Below are positions 29,577-47,800 of a DNA stretch of 64,000 bases, one piece after another. The translations under genes and the position numbers were made by a program. The notes under the pieces are model-generated. The model saw nothing but the letters and a program-made list of their open reading frames with translations. It did not search any database and was not told where the DNA came from. The stretch is from Chromatiales bacterium (GTDB lineage Bacteria; Pseudomonadota; Gammaproteobacteria; Steroidobacterales; GCA-2729495), in contig JAEUPZ010000034.1 of NCBI GenBank assembly GCA_016789885.1, positions 1-64,000 on the forward strand, given 5' to 3'. Position 1 is the first letter of the stretch. Each line of letters begins with the position of its first letter.

Positions 29577-30542
29577 TCAGAGCCACCCCGCCCGCCGCAG
29601 CCGGAAGTAGAGCCCGCCACAGGCCGCCACCGTGACGCCGATGACCACCGGGTACGCCCAGGGCAGGCGCAGTTCCGGCATTGCCTCGAAGTTCATGCCG
29701 TAGAGGCTGAACATCACCGTCGGGATGGCGAGGATCGCGCCCCACCCGGCGAGCCGCTTGACCACCTCGTTCTGACCGACGGTGACCATGGCCAGGTGCA
29801 CCTGCACGGCGGTGGTCAGCATCTCGCGCAGGCTGTCGACGGTCTTGATGATGCGGGTGCTGTGGTCCTCGATGTCACGGAAGTAGGCGCGCAGCTCCTT
29901 GCGCACGAGGCCGTCGTGCTGGCGCACCAGCTCCTTGCACATGTCCGGGATCGGCAGGGCGGCGTCCCGCAGCCTGACGAGCTGGCTCTTGAGGGCGTAG
30001 ATGCGGGTGATGGACTCGCGGTCGAGGTTCTCCTCGAGGATCTGGTTCTCGAGTTCCTCGAACCGCTGCTTCAGGCTGTCGACCTCCGGCTGGTAGTTGT
30101 CGACGATGGCGTCCATGACGGCGTAGAGCGCGTAGCCCGTACCGAGTGCCAGGCGCTGGGGGTTCTCCTCGCAGCGCTGGCGTACCGGCGAGTAGCTCAC
30201 CGATGGGCCGTGGCGCACGGTGACGATGTAGTTGTGGCCGGCGAAGATGTGGGTCTCGCCGAAGGCCACCTCGCCGTCGACCATCTGGGCGGTCTCCAGC
30301 ACGATGAAGACCGAGTCGCCGTAGGTCTCGAGCTTGGGCCGCTGGTGCGCGTTCAGTGCGTCCTCGATGGCCAGGTCGTGCAGGGCGAACTCCTCCTGCA
30401 CCTTGCGCAGCAGCGCGATGTCGGGCTCGTACAGGCCGAGCCACAGGAAGGTCTCAGGCTCCTTGAGGACCTCGCTGATGTCCTCGAGGGTCACGGTGCC
30501 GATGCGGCGACCCTGCCGGTAGGCGACGCAGTTGACGATCAT
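29577..30542 (-). CDS. corA: CorA-type magnesium/divalent cation transporter
   Basis: The 321-residue product has the CorA layout: a soluble N-terminal alpha/beta domain, a long acidic helix region and two C-terminal helices. The signature YGMNF (GMN at 282-284) ends the first helix. The start at 30542 has GGGAGGA 6 nt upstream, an excellent site; a much longer open frame into the next gene is a shadow. The gene is divergent from the reductase at 30607, with 64 nt between the starts. Confidence 0.93.
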   Translation of the reverse strand: MIVNCVAYRQGRRIGTVTLEDISEVLKEPETFLWLGLYEPDIALLRKVQEEFALHDLAIEDALNAHQRPKLETYGDSVFIVLETAQMVDGEVAFGETHIFAGHNYIVTVRHGPSVSYSPVRQRCEENPQRLALGTGYALYAVMDAIVDNYQPEVDSLKQRFEELENQILEENLDRESITRIYALKSQLVRLRDAALPIPDMCKELVRQHDGLVRKELRAYFRDIEDHSTRIIKTVDSLREMLTTAVQVHLAMVTVGQNEVVKRLAGWGAILAIPTVMFSLYGMNFEAMPELRLPWAYPVVIGVTVAACGGLYFRLRRAGWL

Positions 30543-30606: not shown

Positions 30607-32208
30607 ATGAGCTCCCTCGCCCCTACGCCCGGTGATCTCGCCGGCAAGGTCATCCTCGTCACCGGTGCCGCCGGGAACATCGGCGGTGCCATCGCGGCGC
30701 ACTGCCTGTCGGCCGGTGCCCGGGTGGTGATGACGGGGCGCGACCCGGCACGGCTGGCCGGGGCGCGGGACCGGTTGCTGGCCGCCACCGGCGCGTCGCC
30801 CGAGGCTGCCGTCGCGGCCATCCTCGAGGGCGGCGACCCCGATTCCGTGCGGTCGGCCGTCGCCCGCGCGTTCGATGCCTGCGGCCGCCTCGACGTACTG
30901 GTCAACAACGCGGGCTCCGCGGGACCGCGCCAGCCCCTGGCGTCGGTGCCGCTCGATGCCGCCGAACTCGGGGCCCTGCGCAGCGCCGGCGCCGCCGATA
31001 CGGAGACGGCCGGTGCCGCCGCCCGCAGCCTGCTGGGCGTTGCCTGGAACGTCGTCCGCGCCGCCGCACCAGCCTTGCAGCCGGGCGCGTCGGTGATCAA
31101 CGTCTCGACGATCTTCTCGCGCACGGCGTACTACGGCCGCACGGCGTATACCGTGCCGAAGGCGGCACTCAACGCCTTTTCGGGCGTGCTGGCCCGGGAG
31201 CTCGGCGCCCGGGGTGTCCGGGTGAACACGGTCTACCCGGGCCCCATCGAGAGCGAGCGGATCCACGCGGTCTTCGCGGCCATGGACGCGCTGCGGGGTG
31301 GAACACCCGGCACGACGGCGGCGCACTTCCTGGGCACGATGCGCCTCGCCCGGGCGGGCGAGGGCGAGCCGCCCCGTCCGCGCTATCCGTCGGTCGCCGA
31401 CGTGGTGGGGGCCGTGGCCTTCCTCGCGAGCGATGCCTCGGCGGCCCTGCACGGGCACTCCTTCGAGGTCACCCACGGCATGGCCGTGCCCGACGACGGC
31501 CCGGTGCAGCTGTCGCCACCGCCGGCACTGCCCGCCGATGCCCTGGCGGGGCGCCGGGTGCTGGTGGCCGGCGGCGAGCCGGTGGCCGACGCGGTCGCCG
31601 TGGCGCAGGTGCTCGCGGCCCACGGGGCCCGCGTGCTGCTCGGCCTGCCCGATGCCGCGGCGGTTTCGTCGGCAGCGCAGCAGCTCGCGGGCCAGCCGGG
31701 CGCCGACCAGATCGCGCCGCTCCGGGTGGACCGTCGCCGGCCGACGACCATTGCCTCGGCCCTGGCGGGTTCGACCGTCGCCGGTGCCGTAATCCTGCCG
31801 GCCGGCGCGCGCTGCACCTCGCAAGGCCTCGCCACGGCGACGGACGAGGAGGTGGCGGCGCTGCTCGACGACGAGCTCGTCGGCGCCATCGCGCTCGCCC
31901 GGGAACTGGCGCGCCACTGGCACCGGCGGCCGCCAGCCGACGGGGCGCCGCGGGCCATCTTCGTTGGGGGTGGCGACGCCCTGGTCGATCCCTTCGCGCC
32001 GCTGCGCGATGCCGGCATTGCCCAGCTCATCCGGGTCTGGCGCGAAGAAGCGGCCGCGCCGCGCGAGGCTGATCCGCTGGCCCTGCGGGCCCACCTGCTC
32101 TTGCGGCGGGGTGCGAACGGCCAGGCTGGGCTTGGCCTTGCCGCCCGGCAGGTTGTCGCCCTGCTGGCGCCGGGCGAGGCGGTCGAGCCCATCGAGCTGC
32201 GGGCGTGA
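30607..32208 (+). CDS. Tandem-SDR protein equivalent to the N-terminal half of malonyl-CoA reductase
   Basis: The 533-residue product matches, from memory of the Chloroflexus aurantiacus enzyme, the first 550 or so residues of the bifunctional malonyl-CoA reductase. Shared segments include NNAGSAGPRQPLASVPLDAA, VINVSTIFSRTAYYGR, ARELGARGVRVNT, YPGPIESERI and FEVTHGM. SDR domain 1 (residues 10-300) has TGAAGNIGG at 19-27, NNAG at 100-103 and the Tyr181-x3-Lys185 pair. Domain 2 (from 315) is a degenerate Rossmann fold. In Chloroflexus this half reduces malonate semialdehyde to 3-hydroxypropionate, and the C-terminal half makes the semialdehyde. Here the frame stops at 32208 and a convergent gene follows, so the C-terminal half is absent from this locus. 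No other 3-hydroxypropionate gene is in the window. Confidence 0.8.
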   Translation: MSSLAPTPGDLAGKVILVTGAAGNIGGAIAAHCLSAGARVVMTGRDPARLAGARDRLLAATGASPEAAVAAILEGGDPDSVRSAVARAFDACGRLDVLVNNAGSAGPRQPLASVPLDAAELGALRSAGAADTETAGAAARSLLGVAWNVVRAAAPALQPGASVINVSTIFSRTAYYGRTAYTVPKAALNAFSGVLARELGARGVRVNTVYPGPIESERIHAVFAAMDALRGGTPGTTAAHFLGTMRLARAGEGEPPRPRYPSVADVVGAVAFLASDASAALHGHSFEVTHGMAVPDDGPVQLSPPPALPADALAGRRVLVAGGEPVADAVAVAQVLAAHGARVLLGLPDAAAVSSAAQQLAGQPGADQIAPLRVDRRRPTTIASALAGSTVAGAVILPAGARCTSQGLATATDEEVAALLDDELVGAIALARELARHWHRRPPADGAPRAIFVGGGDALVDPFAPLRDAGIAQLIRVWREEAAAPREADPLALRAHLLLRRGANGQAGLGLAARQVVALLAPGEAVEPIELRA

Positions 32209-32315: not shown

Positions 32316-33137
32316 TCAGCCCGGCAGCAGCGACCCCGAGCGCTCCCGGTACTCGCGGTAGCTGCCATCGCTGCCGTAGCGGGCGAGCTGCTGCTCGTCC
32401 TGGTCGCGCGCGGCGTAGACCATCAGGATGACGATGTAGAGCGGTCCCAGCACGCCGGCGGCCAGCGTGAATGCCGAGCCGGCCGCGCTGGCGCCCACGA
32501 CGATGAGCCCCAGCTGGAACAGGATCTCACCGAGGTAGTTCGGGTGGCGCATGCGGGCGTAGAGCCCGGTCGTGACGAAGCTGCCAGGCCGCGCCGCCTT
32601 GGCCGACTGCTTCTGCTGGTCGGCGATGGCCTCGAGCACCAGCCCGACCACCGCGATGGCGGCGCCCGCGTAGACGCCGAGGCTCGGCACCGCCGGCTCG
32701 CCGGCCACCCAGGCCGGCATGGCCACGAAGGCCATGAGCCACGAGCAGCACACCCACATGAAGAGCCGCAGGGGCAGCGGCACGGCGGCGTCACCCTTTT
32801 CGCCACGCTCGCGGATCGCCGCGTACCCGCGGGAACTGAACCGCGCCCAGACGAACCAGCCGAGGCGCAGCCCGTAGGCCATGCCGATGCTCCCCACCAG
32901 CAGCACCGCAGGCTCGGGGCGCACGGCCATGGCGACGCCGTTGGCCAGCACCATGCTGATGGCGTAGCCGTAGGAGAACACCCAGGCGAATTGCACGAAG
33001 ATGATCGCGCAGCCGAGGAACGACACGGCCAGCATCAGCCAGTGCACGCTGGTCCACTGGCCGCTGGCGGCGCCGAAGCCGCAGGTGGCCCACATGGCCA
33101 GCACGAACAGCGGAAAGATGTAGCGGATCGGACCCAT
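32316..33137 (-). CDS. DUF1295/isoprenylcysteine-methyltransferase-like membrane protein
   Basis: The 273-residue product has six or seven membrane helices. The C-terminal signature GLYARMRHPNYLGEI places it in the DUF1295 (steroid 5-alpha-reductase C-terminal/ICMT-like) group, whose members bind cofactor near the RHPNY motif. The reaction is unknown. It begins 24 nt after the cysteine-synthase-family gene on the same strand, so they are probably co-transcribed. Confidence 0.85.
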   Translation of the reverse strand: MGPIRYIFPLFVLAMWATCGFGAASGQWTSVHWLMLAVSFLGCAIIFVQFAWVFSYGYAISMVLANGVAMAVRPEPAVLLVGSIGMAYGLRLGWFVWARFSSRGYAAIRERGEKGDAAVPLPLRLFMWVCCSWLMAFVAMPAWVAGEPAVPSLGVYAGAAIAVVGLVLEAIADQQKQSAKAARPGSFVTTGLYARMRHPNYLGEILFQLGLIVVGASAAGSAFTLAAGVLGPLYIVILMVYAARDQDEQQLARYGSDGSYREYRERSGSLLPG

Positions 33138-34977: not shown

Positions 34978-35129
34978 TTGCCCGGGGCTTGCGCTTTTGC
35001 CGTGGGCCTGCCGCGCTCCGGGTGCATCATTGACGAAGTGCGTCGGGTAACCGGTGCCGTCGCCAGCAGGCTGGTCGGTTACGAGGACTGGAACAGGAAG
35101 CCGCGGGGTGTGCTGCGGGTGAGAGGTTC

Positions 35130-35411
35130 ATGACGATGGGCGATCCGGCCGACAGCCGTACCGAAGTGCAACGGGCCATCGCCGAGCGCGCGCGGGAGTT
35201 CGCGGCCGGCGAGCACGGGCATCGCCCGCAGCGCTACTGGGTGTATGCGATCGGGTTCGTCCTGGCCGCCCTGGTCGTGGGCACCGTGTTCTTCGGTTTC
35301 GATGTTTTTCTCGGCAGCATGCAGAAGGTGATCGAGATCATCAGCGCTGATGAGACGACCCCGGACCCGGTACCGGTGTTCATCGTTCCCCAACCTCCAT
35401 CCCAGCCCTGA
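35130..35411 (+). CDS. Small single-span membrane protein (hypothetical)
   Basis: The 93-residue product has a charged N-terminal part (AERAREFAAGEHGHRPQRYW), one helix (about residues 38-58, YAIGFVLAALVVGTVFFGF) and a Pro-rich tail outside (PDPVPVFIVPQPPSQP). A GAGAGG Shine-Dalgarno stands 4 nt before the ATG. No family was recognised. It ends 54 nt before tRNA-Arg. Confidence 0.7.
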   Translation: MTMGDPADSRTEVQRAIAERAREFAAGEHGHRPQRYWVYAIGFVLAALVVGTVFFGFDVFLGSMQKVIEIISADETTPDPVPVFIVPQPPSQP

Positions 35412-36570
35412 TGACGGTTCCGGCGCTCCCGGCTTGCCGTCGGGCGGCGTAAGCTTCCCCGTCACGCGCCCGTAGCTCAGCCGGATAGAGCATCAGGCTT
35501 CGAACCTGAGGGTCGGGAGTTCGAATCTCTCCGGGCGCGCCAGCCACTGACGGATCCGCGTGTTCTGACCGGTTTCGGCGCGCGCGTCTGCTGCGAAGCT
35601 CTGGCAGGCTGGCAGCACGCCGCTGGAGCCAGCCATGACCCGAAGTGTTGCGCTGTACGAAGCCCTGATTCAGGCTAATGGTCCACAGCCTGCCGCCCGG
35701 CGGGTCGTCGAAGCGCTGGAGGCCGACATGAGTGCGAGTCTCGCCACCAAGCAGGATGTTGCGCTGCTCGATCACCGCATCACAGCGCTTGACCAGCGCG
35801 TGACAGCCCTTGACGACCGGATGGTCGAGCGCTTCTCCGCCGCCCAGCGCGAGCTGGACCTTAAGCTCGATGGACTGGAGACGCGTCTGCTGGTGAAGCT
35901 CGGCGCGCTCATCACGGCACTGGCCGGAATCGCGGCGGGGCTGCAGCGGTTCGCTGGTTAGGGCGAGCCGACCGATAGGGGGAGCCAGCCCGCAGCGCGA
36001 CTCCGGCACCGGACCGGCGAGCTGGGCGAACGTGATCCGTACCCCCGACGGGTCTGCCACGGTGAAGGCCAGCGTCGTTCCGCGGGTGCGGGCGGCCTGG
36101 TAGCCGGTCACCTCTGACAGCAGCTCGACGCCGGCCTGCTTCAGGCGCCCGAATGGCGCCGTTGCGTCGTCGGTCAGGAGCAGCAGCGAGATCCTGCTGA
36201 AATCGGCCGTAATCGGGTCGGGGACCGGATCGATGACCCGGACAAGTCCCGGCAGTCCGCCGGCGATGTCCTTGCGCGGTGACTGCAGCGCGACTACCCG
36301 GGCCTTGCGGGCGGGTAGCCCGATCAGCGCCAGCTCACCGGGGTTGTCGATCTCCTCGTCGCAGACCACCCGGAACCCCAGCAGGTCACGGTAGAACGGC
36401 AGGACCGCGTCGACGTCCGGAACGATCTGGTTGACCCGGCGCACCGCCGAGACGGTGGAGCCCGCGGCGGCACCGGGGCTCTCGACGCAAAGGCCCATGG
36501 CCGGACCCGCCAGCGTGATCGTGGTGACACATGCGAACGCCATGCGCCTGCCAAGGCACTGGGCTTTCAT
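35380..36570 (-). CDS. VOC (glyoxalase-fold) protein with abnormal read-through C-terminus
   Basis: Residues 1-27 form a signal peptide (MKAQCLGRRMAFACVTTITL). Residues 40-185 are one VOC module: VRRVNQIVPDVDAVLPFYRD, LLGFRVVCDEEIDNPGE, then RGTTLAFTVADPSGVRITFA. The VOC part ends near 36020 but no stop follows. The frame continues antisense through the coiled-coil gene and the tRNA-Arg to 35380, adding about 210 residues of no family. The last part is the well-known spurious peptide read from tRNA-Arg antisense. The gene has probably lost its original stop by a frameshift or 3' deletion. The VOC part alone is well supported; the full length is not. GGAAG lies 9 nt before the ATG at 36570. 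Confidence 0.55.
   Translation of the reverse strand: MKAQCLGRRMAFACVTTITLAGPAMGLCVESPGAAAGSTVSAVRRVNQIVPDVDAVLPFYRDLLGFRVVCDEEIDNPGELALIGLPARKARVVALQSPRKDIAGGLPGLVRVIDPVPDPITADFSRISLLLLTDDATAPFGRLKQAGVELLSEVTGYQAARTRGTTLAFTVADPSGVRITFAQLAGPVPESRCGLAPPIGRLALTSEPLQPRRDSGQCRDERAELHQQTRLQSIELKVQLALGGGEALDHPVVKGCHALVKRCDAVIEQRNILLGGETRTHVGLQRFDDPPGGRLWTISLNQGFVQRNTSGHGWLQRRAASLPELRSRRARRNRSEHADPSVAGAPGEIRTPDPQVRSLMLYPAELRARDGEAYAARRQAGSAGTVIRAGMEVGER
35466..35542 (+). tRNA. tRNA-Arg (anticodon UCG)
   Basis: The cloverleaf is complete: acceptor GCGCCCG (35466-35472) pairs with CGGGCGC (35532-35538). The D-arm is GCTC/GAGC, the anticodon stem TCAGG/CCTGA holds loop CTTCGAA with anticodon TCG, and the T-arm is GGGAG-TTCGAAT-CTCTC. 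Discriminator G and CCA are encoded (35539-35542). It should read CGA, and by modification perhaps other CGN codons. Confidence 0.97.
35635..35961 (+). CDS. DUF1640-like coiled-coil protein with C-terminal membrane anchor
   Basis: The 108-residue product starts MTRSVALYEALIQANG, passes through a short globular part ending MSASLATKQDV, then a heptad coiled coil (LLDHRITALDQRVTALDDRM) and a last hydrophobic helix (about 88-105). This order is that of DUF1640/CCDC90-type proteins. GGAG lies 7 nt upstream of the ATG. Function is unknown. Confidence 0.72.
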   Translation: MTRSVALYEALIQANGPQPAARRVVEALEADMSASLATKQDVALLDHRITALDQRVTALDDRMVERFSAAQRELDLKLDGLETRLLVKLGALITALAGIAAGLQRFAG

Positions 36571-36935
36571 GGGCAATTGCTTCCGGTTGCGGGGGCCGGT
36601 GTGTGGATCGTCGCGCCGCGCCGCGCCCCGATGGTCATCGACCGCATCCGAGCACGCCGACAGTCGTGCGGACCAGCAGGATGGGTCTGGCACTGCGCAT
36701 GGCGGGTTCATCCGCGTCCCGGCAACCCCGACCGTGGGGCAGGCCGGTAGCACGGCATCTGCCCCGCCTTGCACGGGGGCTGGGTAGAGGCACAGGCGGG
36801 CAGCCATACCCCGGGCCGTGTGCCCTTCGTCACGAACCACTGCCCTCCGGCCTCCGCAACGCGATTGATCCGGGGGCGCGATGTCGTCTTACCGCCAGCG
36901 ACCGCCACCACGGCGGCTTCGGGGGTTCGGCTGAC
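36571..36935. other. 365-nt divergent intergenic region with alternative hairpins
   Basis: No gene was found. CTGCCCC at 36759-36765 can pair perfectly with GGGGCAG at 36736-36742, or, extended to CTGCCCCGCC, with GGCGGGCAG at 36795-36803 (one bulged C). The two structures exclude each other. They would lie in the leader of the Omp85-type gene on the plus strand. A palindrome GCAATTGC at 36573-36580 adjoins the VOC start. No clear promoter was picked out. Confidence 0.35.
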
Positions 36936-38642
36936 ATGCGACTGCTGGGTCTTGGATCCGGTCTGCTGGCTACGGGGCTTGCCCTGGGGGCCGGTCTGCC
37001 GGCTGGCCCGGAGGAGCCGTCTGCCGCATTGCTACAGGACTATGTGGACCCTGCTGCTGTAGGCCGACGCGGAAGCCAGGTTGCGACCCTGCCAACGCCC
37101 GCCGAACTGGAGCAGCGCGGCGCTGTCATCGGTCGCATCAACGTTGCCGTTGATGACATATTCGACGAAAGCGACCCGCGGGAGGACCGGGTCCTGTACC
37201 GGCTTGCCAACCGTCTGCACGTGGATACGAAGGACAGCGTCGTCCTTGCCCAGGTCTTGCTCAAGCCCGGCGAGACATACTCGGTGCAGAGGGCCAATGA
37301 GACGGCGCGCATCCTGCGGGGCAAGCGGTACCTGTACGACTCGGTCGTAGAGCCAGTCGCGTATGACCCTGACACCAACACCGTTGACCTGGTGGTACGG
37401 GTGCGGGATGTCTGGAGCCTGAGCCCGGGATTTGGCGTCGGTCGCAGCGGCGGGGAAAACAAGGCCCGCGCCCGCATCGTCGATGAGAATTTCCTTGGTC
37501 GCGGCCAGTATCTGGCGGCGGCCTACACCAGCACGGTGGACCGGTCGGGCCTCTCCCTGGATTTCCGGGACCAGAACCTCTTCCAGTCCTGGTGGGGCGT
37601 GGACATCGGCTACGCCGACAACAGTGACGGCAGCGTGGCGAACCTGTCCCTCGTCAAACCGTTCTACTCCCTGGATACCCGCTGGAGCACCGGCTTCCGC
37701 GGCCTGGCGGGGGACCAGATCACTCCCCTGTACGACCTTGGGGAAAAGGTCAACGAGTTCCGGCAGGAGACCGATTTTTTCGGTATTGAGGGTGGCCGTT
37801 CCCGTGGCCTGGTCGATGGCTGGACCACCCGCTGGCTGGCCGGCTACCGGTATGACCGCAGCCGCTTCGAGGAGAGCTTCGAGGACATGCCCACCGTGCT
37901 GCTGCCCGAGGACCGCACGCTGTCCTATCCCTGGGTGGGGGTCGAACTCATCCAGGACCGGTTCAAGACGACCCGCAACCAGGACCAGATCGGGCGTACC
38001 GAGGATGTCTACCTCGGCAGGTCGGTGCGGGCGGAACTGGGCTACACGGCGGAATCGCTGGGTGGCGACCGTTCGGCCGGGATCTTCGCGCTGAGCGGCC
38101 GGTCGGGGAAGTACCTCGGCAAGCGTGGCCTGGTCTTCGTCGAGAGTTTCTGGAACGGCCGGGTCGAGTCCGGCGGACTCGCTGATTCGCTGCTGTCCGT
38201 CGGTGGCCACTACTACCTGCGGTTCAACGAGAAGAGCGTCTTCACCATGACCGTGGAAGGCCAGCGGGGCTTCGACCTTGACCTCGACCACCAGCTGCTG
38301 CTGGGCGGCGATACCGGCTTGCGAGGCTATCCCCTGCGTTACCAGGGGGGCGACACCCGTGCGCTGTTCTCGGTGGAGCAGCGCTACTTCACCGACTGGT
38401 TCCCGTTCCGCCTGGTGCGGGTAGGTGGCGCGGTCTTCGCCGACGTGGGGCGAACCTGGGGATCGGCGCCCCTGGCCAGTGAATCCCAGGGCTGGCTGCC
38501 GGACGTGGGCTTCGGTCTCCGCCTGGGCAACGCCCGGTCGGGGCTCGGCAACGTGCTCCACATTGACCTGGCCTTCCCGCTGGCCGGTGGCAGCGACATC
38601 AGCTCCATGCAGCTGTTGCTGGAGGCGCGGAAGTCTTTCTAG
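36936..38642 (+). CDS. Omp85/BamA-superfamily outer membrane barrel with one POTRA-like domain
   Basis: The 568-residue product has a signal peptide (MRLLGLGSGLLATGLALGAG). It then has a POTRA-like region (about 60-150, GAVIGRINVAVDDIFDESDP to YDPDTNTVDLVVRVRDVW) and a long beta-barrel ending in LLLEARKSF with the C-terminal Phe used for BAM recognition. The barrel has the Omp85 lid-loop motif GDTGLRGYPLRYQGGD. It is shorter than BamA (five POTRA) and TamA (three). It is probably a specialised exporter or patatin-less D15 family member; the substrate is unknown. The start at 36936 is chosen for the signal peptide. Confidence 0.85.
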   Translation: MRLLGLGSGLLATGLALGAGLPAGPEEPSAALLQDYVDPAAVGRRGSQVATLPTPAELEQRGAVIGRINVAVDDIFDESDPREDRVLYRLANRLHVDTKDSVVLAQVLLKPGETYSVQRANETARILRGKRYLYDSVVEPVAYDPDTNTVDLVVRVRDVWSLSPGFGVGRSGGENKARARIVDENFLGRGQYLAAAYTSTVDRSGLSLDFRDQNLFQSWWGVDIGYADNSDGSVANLSLVKPFYSLDTRWSTGFRGLAGDQITPLYDLGEKVNEFRQETDFFGIEGGRSRGLVDGWTTRWLAGYRYDRSRFEESFEDMPTVLLPEDRTLSYPWVGVELIQDRFKTTRNQDQIGRTEDVYLGRSVRAELGYTAESLGGDRSAGIFALSGRSGKYLGKRGLVFVESFWNGRVESGGLADSLLSVGGHYYLRFNEKSVFTMTVEGQRGFDLDLDHQLLLGGDTGLRGYPLRYQGGDTRALFSVEQRYFTDWFPFRLVRVGGAVFADVGRTWGSAPLASESQGWLPDVGFGLRLGNARSGLGNVLHIDLAFPLAGGSDISSMQLLLEARKSF

Positions 38643-38846
38643 CGGGTGGTGGGCGAAGGCCCGGGCATTACCCGGCGACCCTGGAAGGGCCTGCCTTTGC
38701 TGGGCAAGCGCCGCGGGGGCGCCCACGCATTGATTTCAGTATAAGAAGCCACCAACGTGAGATCCGGCCGGGGCCGGTGGCCCGATACGGCCGCCCGCCC
38801 AGACGCTGCCGCGATTGATTTTCCCCGGCACGGTCGTCTCACCGGC
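38643..38846. other. Spacer before gtrA with an AT-rich patch
   Basis: The 204-nt gap after the barrel gene holds one AT-rich patch, TTGATTTCAGTATAAGAAG (38730-38748). TATAAG at 38740-38745 could be a -10 element, but no -35 is visible at 16-18 nt. It may be the promoter of the gtrA-gtrB-GT83 operon. Confidence 0.3.
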
Positions 38847-39227
38847 ATGGGTTTGGCAACTGCCGGGATGTTCAGTCGATACGCCCTGGTCGGCATCGCG
38901 GCAACAGCCGTGCACTATTGCATGCTGATGGGGATGGTGGAGCTCTGGGGCGCCAATCCGGCGCCGGCTGCTGCCGTGGGCGCCGGCAGTGGCGCGCTGG
39001 CCGCCTACATCGGCAATCGGCGCGTCACCTTCGCAAGTCAAGCCGCCCACCGCCGCGTCCTGCCGCGCTTTCTCGTCGTGGCCGCGGTCGGCGCACTCCT
39101 CTCCGGCACCATTGTGTGGACCGGTACGACACTGCTCAGCCTGCCCTACCTCATTCCGCAACTCCTGGCGACGGCACTCGTTCTGGGTGGCGGCTTCGCG
39201 CTTAACCGACAATGGACATTCGCATGA
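38847..39227 (+). CDS. gtrA: GtrA-family lipid-linked sugar flippase
   Basis: GtrA-type proteins have four helices and are thought to flip undecaprenyl-phosphate sugars across the inner membrane. The 126-residue product has the pattern RYALVGIAATAVHYCMLMGM, AAAVGAGSGALAAYIGNRRV with the typical N-x-x-x-TF, and a final GGGFALNRQWTF. The stop overlaps the gtrB start (ATGA), so the two are coupled. A start at 38868 is also possible. Confidence 0.88.
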   Translation: MGLATAGMFSRYALVGIAATAVHYCMLMGMVELWGANPAPAAAVGAGSGALAAYIGNRRVTFASQAAHRRVLPRFLVVAAVGALLSGTIVWTGTTLLSLPYLIPQLLATALVLGGGFALNRQWTFA

Positions 39228-40270
39228 CCAGTTTGCCAGCCTGGCGCTCCGGTGCCGGCGTCAGCACGCATTCCTGCACCCTGAGCGTGATCGTGCCGGC
39301 CTACAACGAGGCCGAAGTCATCGAGGTGTTCCATGAACGTCTCATCGCGGTACTTGCCGGTGCAGGCGTAACCTTTGAGATCATCTATGCGGACGATGGC
39401 AGCACCGATGCAACGCCCCGGATCCTGGCCACGCTGCGCGCACAGGATTCGAGGGTTGGCATCCTTCGCCTGAGCCGGAACTTCGGCAAGGAACAGGCCA
39501 TGAGTGCTGGCCTGAAGCACGCCCGGGGTGCGGTCATCGTAGTGATTGATGCCGACCTTCAGGATCCGCCGGAGCTGATTCCCCGGATGCTCGCTGCGTG
39601 GCGGGCCGGAGCCGACGTGGTCGACATGCGCCGGCGCAGTCGTGCTGGCGAGAGCTGGCTGAAGCGGACGACGGCGCATCTCTTCTACCGCGCGATCAAC
39701 CGTCTCAGTGAAGTACCGATCCCGCATGACACGGGCGACTTCCGCCTGCTGAGCCGGCGTGCAGTCGACGTACTGAACCAGATGCCTGAGCGAAACCGGT
39801 TCATGAAAGGGCTTTTCGCCTGGGTAGGATTCGAGCACACCAGCCTGGTCTATGATCGCGAGCCGCGTGCTGCCGGCACCAGCAAGTGGCACTACTGGAA
39901 GCTATGGAACTTCGCCCTCGAGGGCATCACCGGGTTCTCCGTGGCCCCGCTGAAGGTCGCGTCATACGTCGGCATGTTTACGGCCCTACTGTCGTTTTCC
40001 TATGCGGCGTACGTTCTGGTCAAGACGCTGGTGTCGGGCGACCCGGTGCCTGGCTTCCCCACGTTGATCGTCGTCATCGCCTTCCTTGGCGGCCTGCAAC
40101 TTATGGCGATTGGGATACTGGGCGAGTATGTCGGGCGGCTGTTCCTTGAAACCAAGCGCCGGCCCCTGTACGTGATCGATGAGTTCCGGTCCCCCGACCT
40201 GCAACTGGGCGCACGGCCCCGCTCCGGAGGAGTCGAGCGTGCGCCTGCCGACGTCGCGTTGGGGATCTGA
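39224..40270 (+). CDS. gtrB: GtrB-like polyprenyl-phosphate glycosyltransferase (GT2)
   Basis: The 348-residue product is a GT2 enzyme that loads a sugar on undecaprenyl phosphate, as DPM1, ArnC or GtrB do. It has SVIVPAYNEAEVIEVF, the DDG and VIDADLQDPPELI donor motifs, DTGDFRLLSRRAVD, and two C-terminal helices that anchor it. The start at 39224 forms ATGA with the gtrA stop; an ATG at 39212 is an alternative. The sugar cannot be read from sequence. Confidence 0.9.
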   Translation: MTSLPAWRSGAGVSTHSCTLSVIVPAYNEAEVIEVFHERLIAVLAGAGVTFEIIYADDGSTDATPRILATLRAQDSRVGILRLSRNFGKEQAMSAGLKHARGAVIVVIDADLQDPPELIPRMLAAWRAGADVVDMRRRSRAGESWLKRTTAHLFYRAINRLSEVPIPHDTGDFRLLSRRAVDVLNQMPERNRFMKGLFAWVGFEHTSLVYDREPRAAGTSKWHYWKLWNFALEGITGFSVAPLKVASYVGMFTALLSFSYAAYVLVKTLVSGDPVPGFPTLIVVIAFLGGLQLMAIGILGEYVGRLFLETKRRPLYVIDEFRSPDLQLGARPRSGGVERAPADVALGI

Positions 40271-41684
40271 CGTTGCGCTATGGTGGCTGATCGCGCTCGC
40301 CGCCCTCGCGCGGCTTGCGTCCCTCGGCCTCTATCCATTGATGGACAAGACCGAGGCTCGCTACGCCGAGATCGCCCGCAAGATGGTCCAGACCGGCGAC
40401 TGGGTAACCCCGTGGTTCGACCACGGTGTACCGTTCTGGGGCAAGCCCCCCCTGTCTTTCTGGATGACCGCCGCCAGCTTCAGGGTCATGGGGTTCAGCG
40501 AGTTTGCCGCTCGCCTGCCCCACTGGCTTGGCGCGTGCGCCATTGCCTGGCTGGTCTGGGGATGGCTTGCCCGGCGATCGCGGCGCGAGGCTGTCATTGC
40601 GCTTGTCCTCACCACCACTTCCGCGGCCTTCCTCGTGGCGGCCGGGGCGGTGATGACCGACATGGCCCTGGCGGTTGGCACGACGATGGCGTTGCGCGGG
40701 TTCTGGCTCGGGCTGCATGGCGACCCTGCCGGGAGACTCCGCGAGCAAGCCGTGTTCTTCGCTGGCCTGGCCATCGGCCTGCTGGCCAAGGGCCCGATCG
40801 CAGCGGTACTGGTCGGCGTGCCGCTGGCCGTATGGACACTCTACTCCGGCAAGCTGGGGCTGGTCGTCCGGGAGATCCGCTGGGTGACCGGTACGCTGCT
40901 GGTGGCGATGCTGGTGGTCCCGTGGTACGTACTGGCTGAGGTACGCACCCCCGGGTTCCTCGAGTACTTCGTGGTTGGCGAACACTGGCATCGCTTCGTC
41001 ACTCCAGGCTGGTCAGGCGATCTGTACGGTAAGGCCCATGCCTTCCCGCGGGGGTCGATCTGGCCCTTCGCGATCGCTGCCTGCCTGCCGTGGTCTGTCC
41101 TTGTTCCGGCTGCGGCGCTCCGCTGGCGAAGAACGGCGTTGCCAATACCTGTCGCCGACCGGCCCCTGAAGCTCTACCTCCTTCTCTGGGCCCTTACACC
41201 CTGCGTATTCTTCAGCCTCGCCGGGAACATTCTGTGGACCTATGTCCTGCCCGGGTTACCCGCACTGGCAATACTGGCTTCCCTGTGGCTGGCGCACCTT
41301 CCGCGGCGGGAGCCGGTCAACCGGCTGCTGGCCGGGGGCGTGGCTTCCATGGTGCTTGGCATCGGTACCGCGGTCGTCGCGATCAACGTCGGCGGCTGGG
41401 CCGACAAGGCGTCCACGCGCGATCTGGTGGCCGACTACGACCGGCATCGCGAGGACGGCCAGGCCCTTGTGTTCCTGGGAAGTCGACCCGCCTCGGCTGC
41501 GTTCTACAGCCGGGGCAGGGCCGAGCAGGTGTGCTGCGCCGACGAGCTGGCCGCCCGTCTCGCCCATGGCGTGGTGTATGTGGCGATGAAGGATGGGGCT
41601 TTTAACCAACTACCCGCCGAGGTGGTGCGCCGCCTGCAGAGCGTCAGTCGTCGGGGCAGCTACGCGCTTTACCGCGCCTCATGA
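40239..41684 (+). CDS. GT83 (ArnT/PMT-like) membrane glycosyltransferase
   Basis: The 481-residue product has about twelve helices and uses polyprenyl-phosphate sugars. The first periplasmic loop carries the donor-site acidic motif YPLMDKTEARYAEIARKM, followed by FWGKPPLSFWMTAASFR, both marks of ArnT-like enzymes. The GTG at 40239 has GGAGGAG 7 nt upstream and overlaps gtrB by 32 nt. With gtrA and gtrB it forms a load, flip and transfer set. The acceptor could be lipid A, LPS core or a protein. It is shorter than E. coli ArnT (550), so it is not named arnT. Confidence 0.87.
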   Translation: MRLPTSRWGSDVALWWLIALAALARLASLGLYPLMDKTEARYAEIARKMVQTGDWVTPWFDHGVPFWGKPPLSFWMTAASFRVMGFSEFAARLPHWLGACAIAWLVWGWLARRSRREAVIALVLTTTSAAFLVAAGAVMTDMALAVGTTMALRGFWLGLHGDPAGRLREQAVFFAGLAIGLLAKGPIAAVLVGVPLAVWTLYSGKLGLVVREIRWVTGTLLVAMLVVPWYVLAEVRTPGFLEYFVVGEHWHRFVTPGWSGDLYGKAHAFPRGSIWPFAIAACLPWSVLVPAAALRWRRTALPIPVADRPLKLYLLLWALTPCVFFSLAGNILWTYVLPGLPALAILASLWLAHLPRREPVNRLLAGGVASMVLGIGTAVVAINVGGWADKASTRDLVADYDRHREDGQALVFLGSRPASAAFYSRGRAEQVCCADELAARLAHGVVYVAMKDGAFNQLPAEVVRRLQSVSRRGSYALYRAS

Positions 41685-41742
41685 CGCCTTCGCCGGGGAT
41701 TCCGGTGCTGCTGGATCAACCGGACAGGCCTGTCGCACGAGA

Positions 41743-43437
41743 TCAGGTTGCGGCGGCAGGTTGGCGGGACGCTTGGGCCGTCAGTGGGTTGACATTGCGC
41801 CCTCGGCAACGGGAGAAGAGGTCCAGCGCCGGCTCGCGGGTGGTGGTCTCCACCGCCAGCAGGCCGAGCACGGAATGGAACAGGTGATCGTGGCGAACGT
41901 CACCATCGGTCCCCGCCTGGAGGCAGCCCCAGTTCAGTCCGGCGGACTCCCTCAGTCCCTCTGACAACCACGTGAGCATCGGTACCTGCCGCTGCACCGC
42001 CGGGGCAATCCGCCAGGGCAGGCCATGCAGGTAGATCCCCGCCTCGCCCAGGGACTCGCCATGGTCCGACACGTAAATGAGTCCGGCATTCCTGTCGGTC
42101 CGGGCGCCGAGGTAACGGACAAGGTCGGCGAGGACGTGGTCCGTGTATAGAACGGCGTTGTCGTAGGCGTTGACGATCTCTTCCCGGGAGCAGGCGGCGA
42201 GGTCAGCGCTCTCGCAGGCCGGTGCGAATCGCCGGAACTCGACGGGGTAGCGCCTGGAGTAAGCGGGGCCATGATTGCCCAGCATGTGGAGCACGACCAC
42301 CAGGTCGCCTGCACTGGAGTTGACCACAGATTCAAGCTGCGGAAGCAGGATGCCGTCCAGGCATCGCTCGCCGTCGCACAGCACCGGGTCCCGGTCGCCG
42401 CCCAGGCGTTCCTGCGGCAGGCCCTCGCACACACCCTTGCAGCCGGCCTGGTTGTCTATCCACGCTGCAGAAATCCCTACCCGCTGCAGGACATGGAGCA
42501 GGGACTGCTCGTTGTGGATCCGCTTCTCGTCGTAATCACGCCGGCCCACCGGCGCGAACATGCAGGGCAAAGACACTTCCGTGCTGGTGCCGCAAGCCTC
42601 GACCCGCGGGTAGACCAGCAGATCGAGCTGGCTCAACTCGGGAGTGGTCTGCCGTTCGTAGCCGCTGAGGCCAAAGTTGGCTGAGCGAACCGTTTCCCCG
42701 ATGACGAGCACCAGCAGCGTCGGCTTGCGGCTCGCCGCTGCCTGCACTGTGCGGTGTGCATCCAGGGCGATCGGCTGCCGGCTGCCGGGTGGCGCTGCGA
42801 AGGCGTCCCGGGAGATGCTGAACAAAGACGCGAGGTAGTTGGTGGGCGTAACCAGGTGACGGGCCTCGCGGTGACTGCGCAACAGCGATGACACGTCACG
42901 GTACTGGACGGCCACGACCGTTACCGCCACAGCCAGCGCGGCAGCCACGGCCCCGCTCCTCACGAGCAGGGCCCGGCCGGGTGGCCGGACCCGGATGCGG
43001 GTCCCCATGACAAGGGCGATGGGCAGAACCGCGTAAAGAAGCAGGTGCGGTACGAGTTGCAGTGTCAGGAGTTCGCCTGCCTCGGCCGGGTCCGTCTTCA
43101 GGATGCTCCGAAGCATCTCGGCATTGAGGAAGATCGTGTACCGGTCCATGAAGAACGCGGCCAGAGCCGTACAGGCGAAGAGCAGGGCGAGGACGGGCCT
43201 GACGGTTCGCCGGGTGAGTAACACGGCCAGGCCGGCGAACTGGAGGCAGACGACGGCGATGAAGAGCCCGACGAACTGGGTGATGGTGCGCACCTCGGAA
43301 AGTTCTGCTGTTCCGAAGAGCAGGCGCCACAGCGCGTTGTTGTAGAACGCAGCGAACGCCAGGGAGGCGAGGAGGATCAACCCCTCGACACTGAGCGTGC
43401 GCCCCCACCGATGTGTCCCAGGGCTTTGCCGTTCCAT
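41743..43437 (-). CDS. eptA: Lipid A phosphoethanolamine transferase (EptA-like)
   Basis: EptA-type enzymes add phosphoethanolamine to lipid A phosphates on the periplasmic face, lowering the charge that polymyxins bind. The 564-residue product has five N-terminal helices and a sulfatase-fold domain. GETVRSANF carries Glu248, ACGTSTEVSLPCMF carries the nucleophile Thr286, and YVSDHGESLGEAGIYLHG carries later zinc ligands. Cys pairs for disulfides are present. The ATG at 43437 lacks a clear Shine-Dalgarno. It is convergent with the GT83 gene (58 nt apart). Confidence 0.9.
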   Translation of the reverse strand: MERQSPGTHRWGRTLSVEGLILLASLAFAAFYNNALWRLLFGTAELSEVRTITQFVGLFIAVVCLQFAGLAVLLTRRTVRPVLALLFACTALAAFFMDRYTIFLNAEMLRSILKTDPAEAGELLTLQLVPHLLLYAVLPIALVMGTRIRVRPPGRALLVRSGAVAAALAVAVTVVAVQYRDVSSLLRSHREARHLVTPTNYLASLFSISRDAFAAPPGSRQPIALDAHRTVQAAASRKPTLLVLVIGETVRSANFGLSGYERQTTPELSQLDLLVYPRVEACGTSTEVSLPCMFAPVGRRDYDEKRIHNEQSLLHVLQRVGISAAWIDNQAGCKGVCEGLPQERLGGDRDPVLCDGERCLDGILLPQLESVVNSSAGDLVVVLHMLGNHGPAYSRRYPVEFRRFAPACESADLAACSREEIVNAYDNAVLYTDHVLADLVRYLGARTDRNAGLIYVSDHGESLGEAGIYLHGLPWRIAPAVQRQVPMLTWLSEGLRESAGLNWGCLQAGTDGDVRHDHLFHSVLGLLAVETTTREPALDLFSRCRGRNVNPLTAQASRQPAAAT

Positions 43438-43825
43438 TGCCGTTGGACGGGGTGGCGGCCGGGAATCAATCGGGTAGCCGGCGGTTGGACCCGCCGGAAG
43501 GCCCCCCGTTGGGCACAAATCGGGGCCAGAAGCCCGGTGCCGCCACCCGCCTCAGGCGTTGCCGGGCCGGGTGGCTTGCGGCTGCTGCCCCAGGCAGGCC
43601 GCCCGAATCCGGTCATCGGCCCGGGAAATTTCGCGGTGCATTACGCGCCGCCGGCTGGGCGGGGAAGCGGCTAATGCCCCGTGGTCGCGAACCTGCCAGC
43701 ACCCGGCCGGCGGGAGGGGGTTTGGACTGCCTCGTCGCGCGCAATGGACGGATCGTATAGCCGGGGTAACCGGGCTTCCACCTCGGGCGGCTTGAATTGC
43801 CGGGGGCCTGCACCACGGTTGCTCC
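43438..43825. other. 388-nt divergent intergenic region between eptA and the RND operon
   Basis: No gene was found. GTTGGAC occurs at 43442-43448 and 43484-43490, a direct repeat with 42-bp spacing (four helical turns), and CAATC lies at 43467-43471. On the eptA coding strand this reads GATTG, then CGTCCAAC, then the start. The LTA-synthase-like gene has the same elements in the same order (29439-29464). A TATAGC at 43756-43761 might be a -10 element for the RND operon, without a convincing -35. Confidence 0.35.
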
Positions 43826-44806
43826 ATGTCCCCGAACTCTCTCCTGCCACTGTTGCTGCTGGTCGCCGCCTGCGGAGGTCGCCCTCCGGATCCCGGCCAG
43901 ACGCCGCCGGCGACGACGACGCTGGTTGCGGACGAAGCCAACCTGCTGAAACTGACGCTGACACCAGCCGCGCGGGAGCGGTTGGGCATCGCGACCGTGA
44001 CAGTTGGCCCGGCCGAGGTTGGCCGCGTGCGGGAGACCAGCGGCGAGATTGTTGCCCCCAGCGGGGCCGGCGGTGTGCCGACAGGATCCCTCAGCAACCT
44101 TGCGCAAATCGGCAGCCAGCAGGCCGTTGCCGACGGCGAGGTGGAGCGGGCCCGCGCACAGCTGAACCTTGCCCGCATTGCGCTGGCGCGGTCAGCACAG
44201 CTCGTCGCGGAGGAGGCGGGCAGCCTGCGCGCACGCGATGAGGCAGCCGCCGCGCTGGCAACGGCGGAGGCCCAGGCGGGCGCAGCCATCGCCCAGCGCC
44301 GGCTGCTCGGCCCGGCCGTGGCCGGGCTGGGCAATATGGATGTGCTCTGGCTGCGCGTGCCGGTGTTTGGCAGCGACCTTACGAGGATGGCACAGGGTGC
44401 GCCCGTTGTGGTCAGCCCCCTTGGGGCTGGCAATGACCGGCGTAGCGCGACTCCGGTGCAGGCGCCGCCGTCGGCCAACATGGCCGCCGGTACCGTTGAC
44501 TTCTACTACACCATCGACAACAGGGACCGGCTCTACCGTATCGGGCAGAGGGTCGCAGTGCGGGTTCCCCTGGGGGCCACCCTGGCCGGACTATCGATCC
44601 CCATGTCCGCCATCGTCCGCGACATCCATGGCGGCGAGTGGGTCTACGAGAACCCTGCGCCCGAGACCTACAGCCGCCAGCGCATCGAGACAGCCTGGTC
44701 CGACGGCACACACGCCATCGTCGCGCGCGGTCTTCGTCCCGGCGCGGTCATCGTGACCAGCGGCGCGATGGAACTGTTCGGTACCGAGTTCGGGGTGGCG
44801 CACTGA
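43826..44806 (+). CDS. RND efflux adaptor lipoprotein
   Basis: The 326-residue product begins [18 protein letters not shown], a lipoprotein signal with lipobox VAAC (Cys16). The body is a reduced membrane-fusion protein: [20 protein letters not shown], a short alpha-hairpin ([20 protein letters not shown]), and C-terminal barrel and proximal parts ending [20 protein letters not shown]. It lacks the His/Met-rich segments of CusB/CzcB. The stop shares one base with the next start (TGATG). Confidence 0.85.
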
Positions 44807-47800
44807 TGATCGACTGGCTCGTCCGCGCCGCGCTGACCCAGCGTGTACTGGTACTGTTACTGGCCGGAATCCTGGTGGTCCTGGGACTGCGGGCGTCCAA
44901 GGACGTGCCGCTCGACGTATTCCCCGAGTTCGCGCCGCCAATCATCGAAATCCAGACCGAAGCACCCGGACTTTCTACCGAGGACGTCGAGAGCCTGGTG
45001 ACCGTACCGATAGAAGTCGCCGTGAGTGGCGTACCCGACCTCGTCACGCTGCGGTCGAAGTCCGTGCTCGGCCTGTCATCCGTCAGGCTTCTCTTTGAAC
45101 AGAATGCCGACGCGATCCGGGCACGCCAGCTTGTGCAGGAGCGGGTCGCCCAGGTACAGCCGCGCCTGCCGTCCGCCGCGCGGCAGCCGGTCATGCTGCC
45201 GCCGCTGTCCTCGACCAGCCGGGCAATGAAGATCGGCATCTCATCGGCAAGGTACGACCAGATGGAGCTCTCGGAGCTCGTCCGCTGGACGATCCGCCCG
45301 CGGCTGATGGCAGTGCCCGGCGTCGCCAACGTGGCGGTCTGGGGATACCGCGACCGCCAACTGCAGGTGCAGGTCAACCCGGACAGGCTGCGCGCCGCCG
45401 GCGTCACCCTTGCGGAAGTGCGCCGGGCTGCCGGGGATGCAGTGGTCGTAGGCGGCGGTGGATTCCTCGATACGCCCACCCAGCGGCTCTCCGTACAGCA
45501 CGAGGGCACCATTGAGTCCGCAGACGACCTTGCCCGGTCTGTCATCAGGATGGCGGGGGACGCACCAGTCCGGATTGGAGACGTAGCCGAGGTGCGCGAC
45601 GGCCATGCCGCGCCCATCGGCAATGCCATCATCGGCGATGGCCCGGGCCTCATGCTGATCGTCGAGAAGCAGCCGGGGGGCAACACGCTGGAGCTCACGC
45701 GGGCCGTCGAGGCCGCCCTCGAGGAAATGCGTCCGGGACTGCAGGATGTTCTGATCGACTCGACCATCTTCCGCCCGGCCACCTTCATCCAGCGATCGGT
45801 AGACAACCTGACACGCGCGCTCATGATCGGGTGTGTCCTGGTCGCGCTGGTACTGTTCTTGTTCACCCGCGATTGGCGGCAGGCCACGATCAGCTTTGTC
45901 GCCATACCCCTTTCCATGCTGGGGGCAGGGCTCGTCCTGCTCTGGAGCGGCGCGACGATCAATACCATGGTGATTGCCGGACTGGTAATCGCCCTGGGCG
46001 AAGTGGTCGACGACGCCATCATCGATGTGGAGAACATCGCGCGCAGGCTGCGATTGAACCGTGAACTGGGCAGCCCCCGCTCGCCGTTCGACGTTGTACT
46101 TGCGGCCTCGGTGGAGGTCCGCTCAGCGGTGGTGTCGGCCTCGCTGATCGTCATTCTCGTGTTCGTACCCGTGTTCTTCCTGGGTGGCGTTGCCGGGACG
46201 TTCTTCCGGCCGCTGGCGGTCGCCTACGTGCTCGCGATCGCGACATCCCTGGTCGTGGCGCTGTGTGTGACGCCGGCGCTGTGCCTCTTGCTGCTGCCTC
46301 GCGCACCGGAGCGGGAGCAACGAGATACGACCATGGTCACCTGGATGAAGCGCCGCTACACGCGGGCGCTGCCTGGCATGGTCGCCCGGCCGGGTTTGGC
46401 GATGGGAATAGTCGCGGGTGGCCTGCTGGTCGCCGGGCTGGGCTACTCGGGCTTCAAGGACGAGTTCCTGCCCGAATTCCGCGAGTCGGACTTCCTCATG
46501 CACTGGCTCGGCAAGCCGGGATCGTCCATCGAGGCCATGGACCGGATCACGGTCCAGGTTTCGCGGGAGCTTCGCACCATCCCCGGGGTGCGCAACTTCG
46601 GCGCCCACATCGGCCGCGCCGAGGCAGCGGACGAGGTAGTGGGTCCGAACTTCACCGAACTCTGGATCAGCATGGACGAGGGGGCTGACTACGATGCCAA
46701 CGTCGCCCGGATCCAGGAGGTCATCGGCGGCTATCCGGGGCTGTTCCGGGATGTGCTCACCTATTTGCGGGAGCGCATCAAGGAAGTACTGACCGGAGCC
46801 GGTGCGACGGTCGTCGTCCGGATCTTTGGTCCGGAACAGGATGAGCTACGGGCCGCGGCTGAGCGGGTTCGCACCCGCCTGGAGACGATCAGCGGAGTTG
46901 CGGACCTCCACGTGGAACAGCAGGTGCTCGTACCCCAGGTCCAGATACGGCTGCGACCCGACGATCTGGCTAGGCTCGGTCTCACGTCGGGTGAGGTCCG
47001 CCGGCAGGCCCAGACGCTGGTCGCCGGGGAGAAGGTGGGCGAGATCTATCGGGACCAGAAATCTTTTGACGTGACGGTCTGGGGCGAAGAGCGGGTCCGG
47101 AACGATCTGCATGCCCTCAATGACCTGCTGATCGAGACACCGGCGGGCGCACCGGTCCGCCTGCGGGACCTCGCTGAGGTTCGCATCACCCCTGCTCCCA
47201 ACGAAATCATGCGCGAGAATGGCCAGCGCCGTATCGATGTGTCATTGAACGCGCGCGGGCAGGACCTGGGCACCGTGGCGCGCGCCGTCGAGCAGGCCGT
47301 TGCGCAGTTGCCGTTCGCCCGGGGGTATCACCCACACGTTCTCGGTGAGTATGCCGCCCTCAGGGAGTCCCGCCAGCAGCTTTGGACGATTGGCCTGCTC
47401 TGCCTGGCCGCTATCCTGGTGGTGGTCTGGATGGAGTTCCGCTCAAGGCGGATCACGGTACTGGTGGCAGCCAGCCTGCCGTTCGCCCTGGTCGGCGGCG
47501 TGGTAGCCGTGGCGGTGACTGGCGGCAGCCTGTCGCTTGGTTCGCTGGTGGGCTTCGTCACGGTCGTCGGGATCTCGGCCCGCAACGGCATCATGCTGCT
47601 CTCCCATTACCACCATTTGCGGGTGCATGAGGCGGAGCCCTTCAGCCCGCGACTCATCATCCGCGGGGCAGAGGAGCGGCTGGTCCCGATCCTGATGACC
47701 GCGGCCTCTGCGGGGCTGGCCCTGGTCCCGTTGATCATTGCCGGCAATTCCCCCGGCCATGAGATCGAGCACCCGATGGCCATCGTCATCCTCGGCGGGC

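Follow-up and report, generated by a model that had tools for sequence, protein, structure and literature searches.

A stand-alone homologue of the N-terminal half of malonyl-CoA reductase in a gammaproteobacterial genome

Malonyl-CoA reductase and its separated halves

In the 3-hydroxypropionate (3-HP) bi-cycle, malonyl-CoA reductase (MCR) is a key enzyme, as it is in the engineered production of 3-hydroxypropionic acid, for which it is artificially divided because its two halves perform better apart. The bifunctional MCRs of proteobacteria have approximately 1,220-1,260 residues and are usually encoded beside propionyl-CoA synthase (PCS). Their N-terminal half (MCR-N) consists of two tandem SDR domains, SDR1 and SDR2, and their C-terminal half (MCR-C) of SDR3, an extra domain and SDR4. 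To our knowledge, the archaeal malonate semialdehyde reductases are not homologues of the double-SDR MCR-N and would represent an independent solution. These monofunctional, one-step enzymes catalyze the same reaction as the one proposed below for the protein under study (mentioned in PMC10470521). The MCR-N of Chloroflexus (residues 1-549) converts free malonate semialdehyde to 3-HP on its own, and a construct of residues 1-485 is inactive (PMC3779250). For the MCR-N of Roseiflexus, residues T165, Y172, R175, Y178 and K182 have been assigned to malonate semialdehyde binding and catalysis (PMC10470521).

The gene described here occupies positions 30607..32208 (+) of a stretch of 64,000 nucleotides, hereafter the window, and encodes 533 residues plus a stop, with no internal stop codon. 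The original prediction took its product for a stand-alone MCR-N homologue, and sequence, alignment, predicted fold and phylogeny bear this out, confirming a complete homologue of the MCR N-terminal half (SDR1+SDR2). It resembles PdMCR-N of Porphyrobacter dokdonensis (6k8v) and the proteobacterial MCRs in its double-SDR fold, its substrate-site residues and its clade, but, in contrast to the bifunctional enzymes, it has neither the C-half nor PCS as a partner. It spans the whole extent of the active Chloroflexus fragment. Its extent and site are shared by the fragments of Chloroflexus aurantiacus (1-549; PMC3779250) and Roseiflexus castenholzii (1-572; PMC10470521); however, these are laboratory constructs in which the Arg6-Glu274 bridge is kept, whereas the present protein is natural and has lost the bridge on both sides. 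It does look like a natural counterpart of the laboratory-made N-half, as had been proposed, since the gene is complete, the site intact and the C-half not found. In the limited set of open-access literature that was searched, no mention was found of an MCR-N occurring on its own in nature. What is new about the protein is its architecture, within an enzyme family already known, and it does not represent a new type of system.

Fold, substrate site and evolutionary rates

By sequence, the protein matched the PDB entries 6k8v (Porphyrobacter PdMCR-N; 421 bits, E 6e-125), 8hi4 (Roseiflexus RfxMCR; 400 bits) and 8hjw (Chloroflexus CaMCR; 388 bits). Because the best unrelated ordinary SDR reached 77 bits, as against 421 for PdMCR-N, the similarity to MCR-N is far greater than chance or general SDR resemblance would give; MCRs being far nearer than other SDRs, a closer kinship with unrelated tandem SDRs is contradicted. 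Alignment with the N-halves of full-length MCRs runs from residues 8-10 to residue 531 at 40-49% identity, and the homology spans both tandem SDR domains. The AlphaFold2 model of the 533-residue protein has a mean pLDDT of 89 and a pTM of 0.91, the second SDR included, and superimposes on 6k8v with a TM of 0.93 (44% identity) and on 8hi6, the complex of MCR-N with NADP+ and malonate semialdehyde, with a TM of 0.92. In NCBIfam, no model names the protein, which is matched by generic SDR models alone, below cut-off. An ordinary single-domain SDR (FabG-like, ~250 residues) was considered as well and ruled out by the length of 533 residues and by the scores of 77 versus 421 bits.

The catalytic domain SDR1 comprises residues 10-294 (30634..31488, +; PF13561/PF00106). 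The SDR motifs were rightly described as intact and correctly numbered in the original prediction: translation gives TGAAGNIGG at residues 19-27, the NADPH-binding motif (30661..30687, +; also seen in the alignment), NNAG at 100-103, and Tyr181-x3-Lys185. When the protein is mapped onto RfxMCR (PMC10470521), all five residues of the malonate semialdehyde and catalytic site are found to be kept, as T168, Y175, R178, Y181 and K185 (31108..31161, +). Among the NADP+ contacts, R41, S213 and R215 are kept as R45, S216 and R218, and two are changed, D70 to E74, where Glu replaces the adenine-side Asp, and N138 to S141, where Ser replaces the Asn of the SDR tetrad, a replacement also present in one full-length homologue (L144).

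At near-invariant positions of the family, the protein keeps 91 of 100 residues in SDR1 and 29 of 41 in the non-catalytic SDR2 (residues 295-533; 31489..32205, +), the lowest SDR2 fraction of all aligned rows; SDR2 is fast-evolving here. Since the ancestor of the proteobacterial clade, SDR1 has accumulated 0.82 changes per site (mean of the others 0.70, maximum 0.98) and SDR2 2.61 (mean 0.98, maximum 1.67). SDR2 has thus evolved approximately 2.7 times faster than in relatives, with SDR1 at the family rate, and no other sequence of the set has so low an SDR2/SDR1 identity ratio. The inter-subunit salt bridge Arg6-Glu274, whose Arg is present in 53/53 and whose Glu is present in 52/53 of the other sequences, has lost both partners (R to D10, E to A277), and in the last ~50 residues, the part without which the Chloroflexus fragment is inactive, a conserved W-x-N-Q motif and other conserved positions are lost. 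The changes are concentrated in SDR2 and at the subunit interface, away from the substrate site. This pattern is what loss of the C-half with retention of first-domain chemistry would predict, and early decay could look similar.

Partner genes, relatives and descent

The gene is present in a single copy in its source genome, a draft of 3.38 Mb in 35 contigs that is 95.4% complete, and lies well inside a 132-kb contig. Some 70 bp upstream begins the gene of a CorA-like Mg2+ transporter, a divergent neighbor outside the feature (29577..30536, -; PF01544). Downstream, also outside the feature, the gene of a DUF1295/ICMT-like membrane protein (32316..33137, -; PF06966) converges on mcr-N and ends 107 bp past its stop, which leaves no room for a C-half. 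Thus, the malonyl-CoA-reducing half is indeed unfused and the next gene convergent, as first noted, and no MCR-C sequence was found past the stop in any frame, which speaks against a sequencing error hiding the C-half at 32208. A consensus scan at the locus found no promoter or terminator. The GC content of the gene is 76% versus 69% for the window; its codon-position GC pattern is that of a coding gene, GC at codon position 2 is raised, and the product is alanine-rich.

In the source genome, a whole-length MCR-C query retrieved generic SDR-domain matches only, the best of 77 bits over its first third, and the search for PCS retrieved only separate matches of CoA-ligase and enoyl-CoA-hydratase type. 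TIGR00978, which we take to be the family that holds archaeal malonyl-CoA reductase, reached at best 135 bits (cut-off 301), a match that is presumably an ordinary aspartate-semialdehyde dehydrogenase. Among the aldehyde dehydrogenases, the best score against the MmsA equivalog TIGR01722 was 262 bits (cut-off 448.5). Because these searches were negative, this genome shows no sign of a 3-HP route or of an exit for malonate semialdehyde through MmsA. The original prediction had left two options, and the first, that the two activities are split in this organism, finds no support, with no MCR-C, PCS or above-cut-off archaeal-type MCR; the second, a different job such as that of a semialdehyde reductase, is favored.

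Homologue searches covered samples of the order, the class, the phylum and a second order, drawn from the whole collection, and one match from a contig scan (L034) was added. Among the 51 other homologues thus obtained, 49 are full-length by open frame and no second stand-alone N-half was found. One of the other two is cut by a contig end (L129); in the last (L127), a frame of 1,033 codons enters the C-half and stops inside it, reflecting either a frameshift in a metagenome-assembled genome or a true C-terminal truncation. The 39 other genomes of the source family all lack a homologue. The contig pattern scan returned mostly ordinary SDRs that share the chosen patterns and only two real MCR loci (L034 and L035), and no relatives were found in a scan of viral contigs or in plasmids (tblastn). 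In relatives, full-length mcr (~1,240 codons) lies immediately downstream of a gene that has 1,825-1,836 codons and combines acyl-CoA ligase, enoyl-CoA hydratase and crotonyl-CoA-reductase-like parts, the make-up of PCS. A motif check showed that 47 of 50 loci have the end of this gene upstream of mcr.

In the N-half tree, the protein falls inside the proteobacterial MCR clade, apart from the Chloroflexota and a divergent gammaproteobacterial group (99/97), at the end of a long branch. Rooting an SDR1 tree with ordinary SDRs and the SDR3 of MCR-C gave an agreeing placement (97/92). Because the relatives in this clade are full-length, the simplest interpretation is that the C-half was lost, and the data fit such a loss from a full-length ancestor followed by survival as a one-step enzyme. 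Descent from an ancestral, pre-fusion stand-alone half is disfavored by the tree position, with the qualification that an AU test did not reject a tree in which the protein branches as the sister of the remaining MCR-Ns together (p 0.29). Five of the loci (L019, L020, L021, L130 and L033), whose MCRs are full-length, group in a deeply divergent clade of their own outside the main proteobacterial one; they come from another family of the same order (f7) and from another gammaproteobacterial genome.

Proposed role and alternative explanations

We give a probability of roughly 0.5 to the reading that the protein descends from an MCR whose C-half and PCS were lost or never transferred, and that it now acts as an NADPH-dependent reductase of malonate semialdehyde to 3-HP. 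In its favor are the identity with MCR-N, the five conserved site residues, the absence of MCR-C, PCS and archaeal-type MCR, the tree position, the 49 full-length homologues among 51, the family rate of SDR1 against the fast SDR2, and the finding that the isolated Chloroflexus N-half converts free malonate semialdehyde to 3-HP (PMC3779250). It is weakened by Ser141 in place of the tetrad Asn, Glu74 in place of Asp, the loss of W-x-N-Q and the AU p-value of 0.29. NADPH would be bound in SDR1, held at TGAAGNIGG and Arg45; Thr168, Tyr175, Arg178 and Tyr181 would hold the semialdehyde, which would receive a hydride from NADPH and a proton from Tyr181/Lys185. SDR2 would serve as a structural half, on which constraint may have relaxed once the C-half was no longer attached. 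The enzyme might clear malonate semialdehyde that arises in other catabolism, with β-alanine, uracil or propionate as conjectural sources. A further step, which we put forward with reserve, is that the lineage discarded the C-half and so made a dedicated one-step malonate semialdehyde reductase, a CO2-fixation enzyme being reused for detoxification or salvage and SDR2 and the subunit interface being rebuilt to suit a protein that stands alone.

The protein might instead have shifted to another short carboxylated aldehyde or ketone, such as succinate semialdehyde or a 3-oxo acid, held by the same Tyr/Arg carboxylate clamp. With the 3-HP pathway partners absent, malonate semialdehyde need not be abundant, and cofactor-side and interface residues are altered; none of the residues that contact malonate semialdehyde has changed, however, and the rate of SDR1 is that of the family, so that we regard such a shift as unlikely, if worth keeping in mind. 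Decay offers another account, in which the gene is left over from a pcs-mcr operon, either ancestral or acquired by transfer, and is no longer of use. The missing C-half and PCS, the absence of homologues from the 39 other family genomes, the accelerated SDR2, the lost near-invariant bridge, the alanine-rich composition and the raised GC at codon position 2 would all agree with it. However, the frame has stayed open over 533 codons despite large divergence, with the codon-position GC of a coding gene; the catalytic residues and 91 of the 100 near-invariant SDR1 positions are kept, the SDR1 rate is not raised and the fold is confidently predicted, which makes decay rather improbable.

That a separate protein performs the malonyl-CoA step and cooperates with this one can be imagined, since the halves, when separated by engineering, function as individual proteins and do so even better than when joined (PMC3779250), and since the assembly may lack approximately 5% of the genome. 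We nonetheless consider such a pair very improbable, given the generic SDR-domain matches of the MCR-C query, the TIGR00978 score far below its cut-off and the lack of a PCS to consume 3-HP. Hardly credible is an assembly or sequencing artefact concealing the C-half: the draft state of the assembly and the elevated GC of the gene would allow for one, but the locus is deep in its contig among closely packed neighbors, and the end of the protein coincides with that of the N-half, with no C-half sequence downstream in any frame.

A natural single half shows which features are free to change without the C-half, namely SDR2 and the Arg6-Glu274 bridge, and what is kept, the five-residue malonate semialdehyde site. 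It may also supply a ready-made stand-alone malonate semialdehyde reductase. For annotation, it is a warning that a match to MCR-N does not imply a 3-HP pathway.

As to the surroundings of the locus, a PLP-dependent (cysteine-synthase-like) gene comes after the DUF1295/ICMT-like gene. Beside corA in this Gram-negative genome, 27472-29466 (-) encodes a protein with a sulfatase domain, of the lipoteichoic-acid-synthase/phosphoglycerol-transferase type. In the 35000-45000 part of the window, GC at codon position 3 of long ORFs is approximately 0.94 before a tRNA-Arg gene (35466-35542) versus approximately 0.79 after it, and Omp85-like and glycosyltransferase genes occupy the lower-GC3 side, which might mark the edge of an island.
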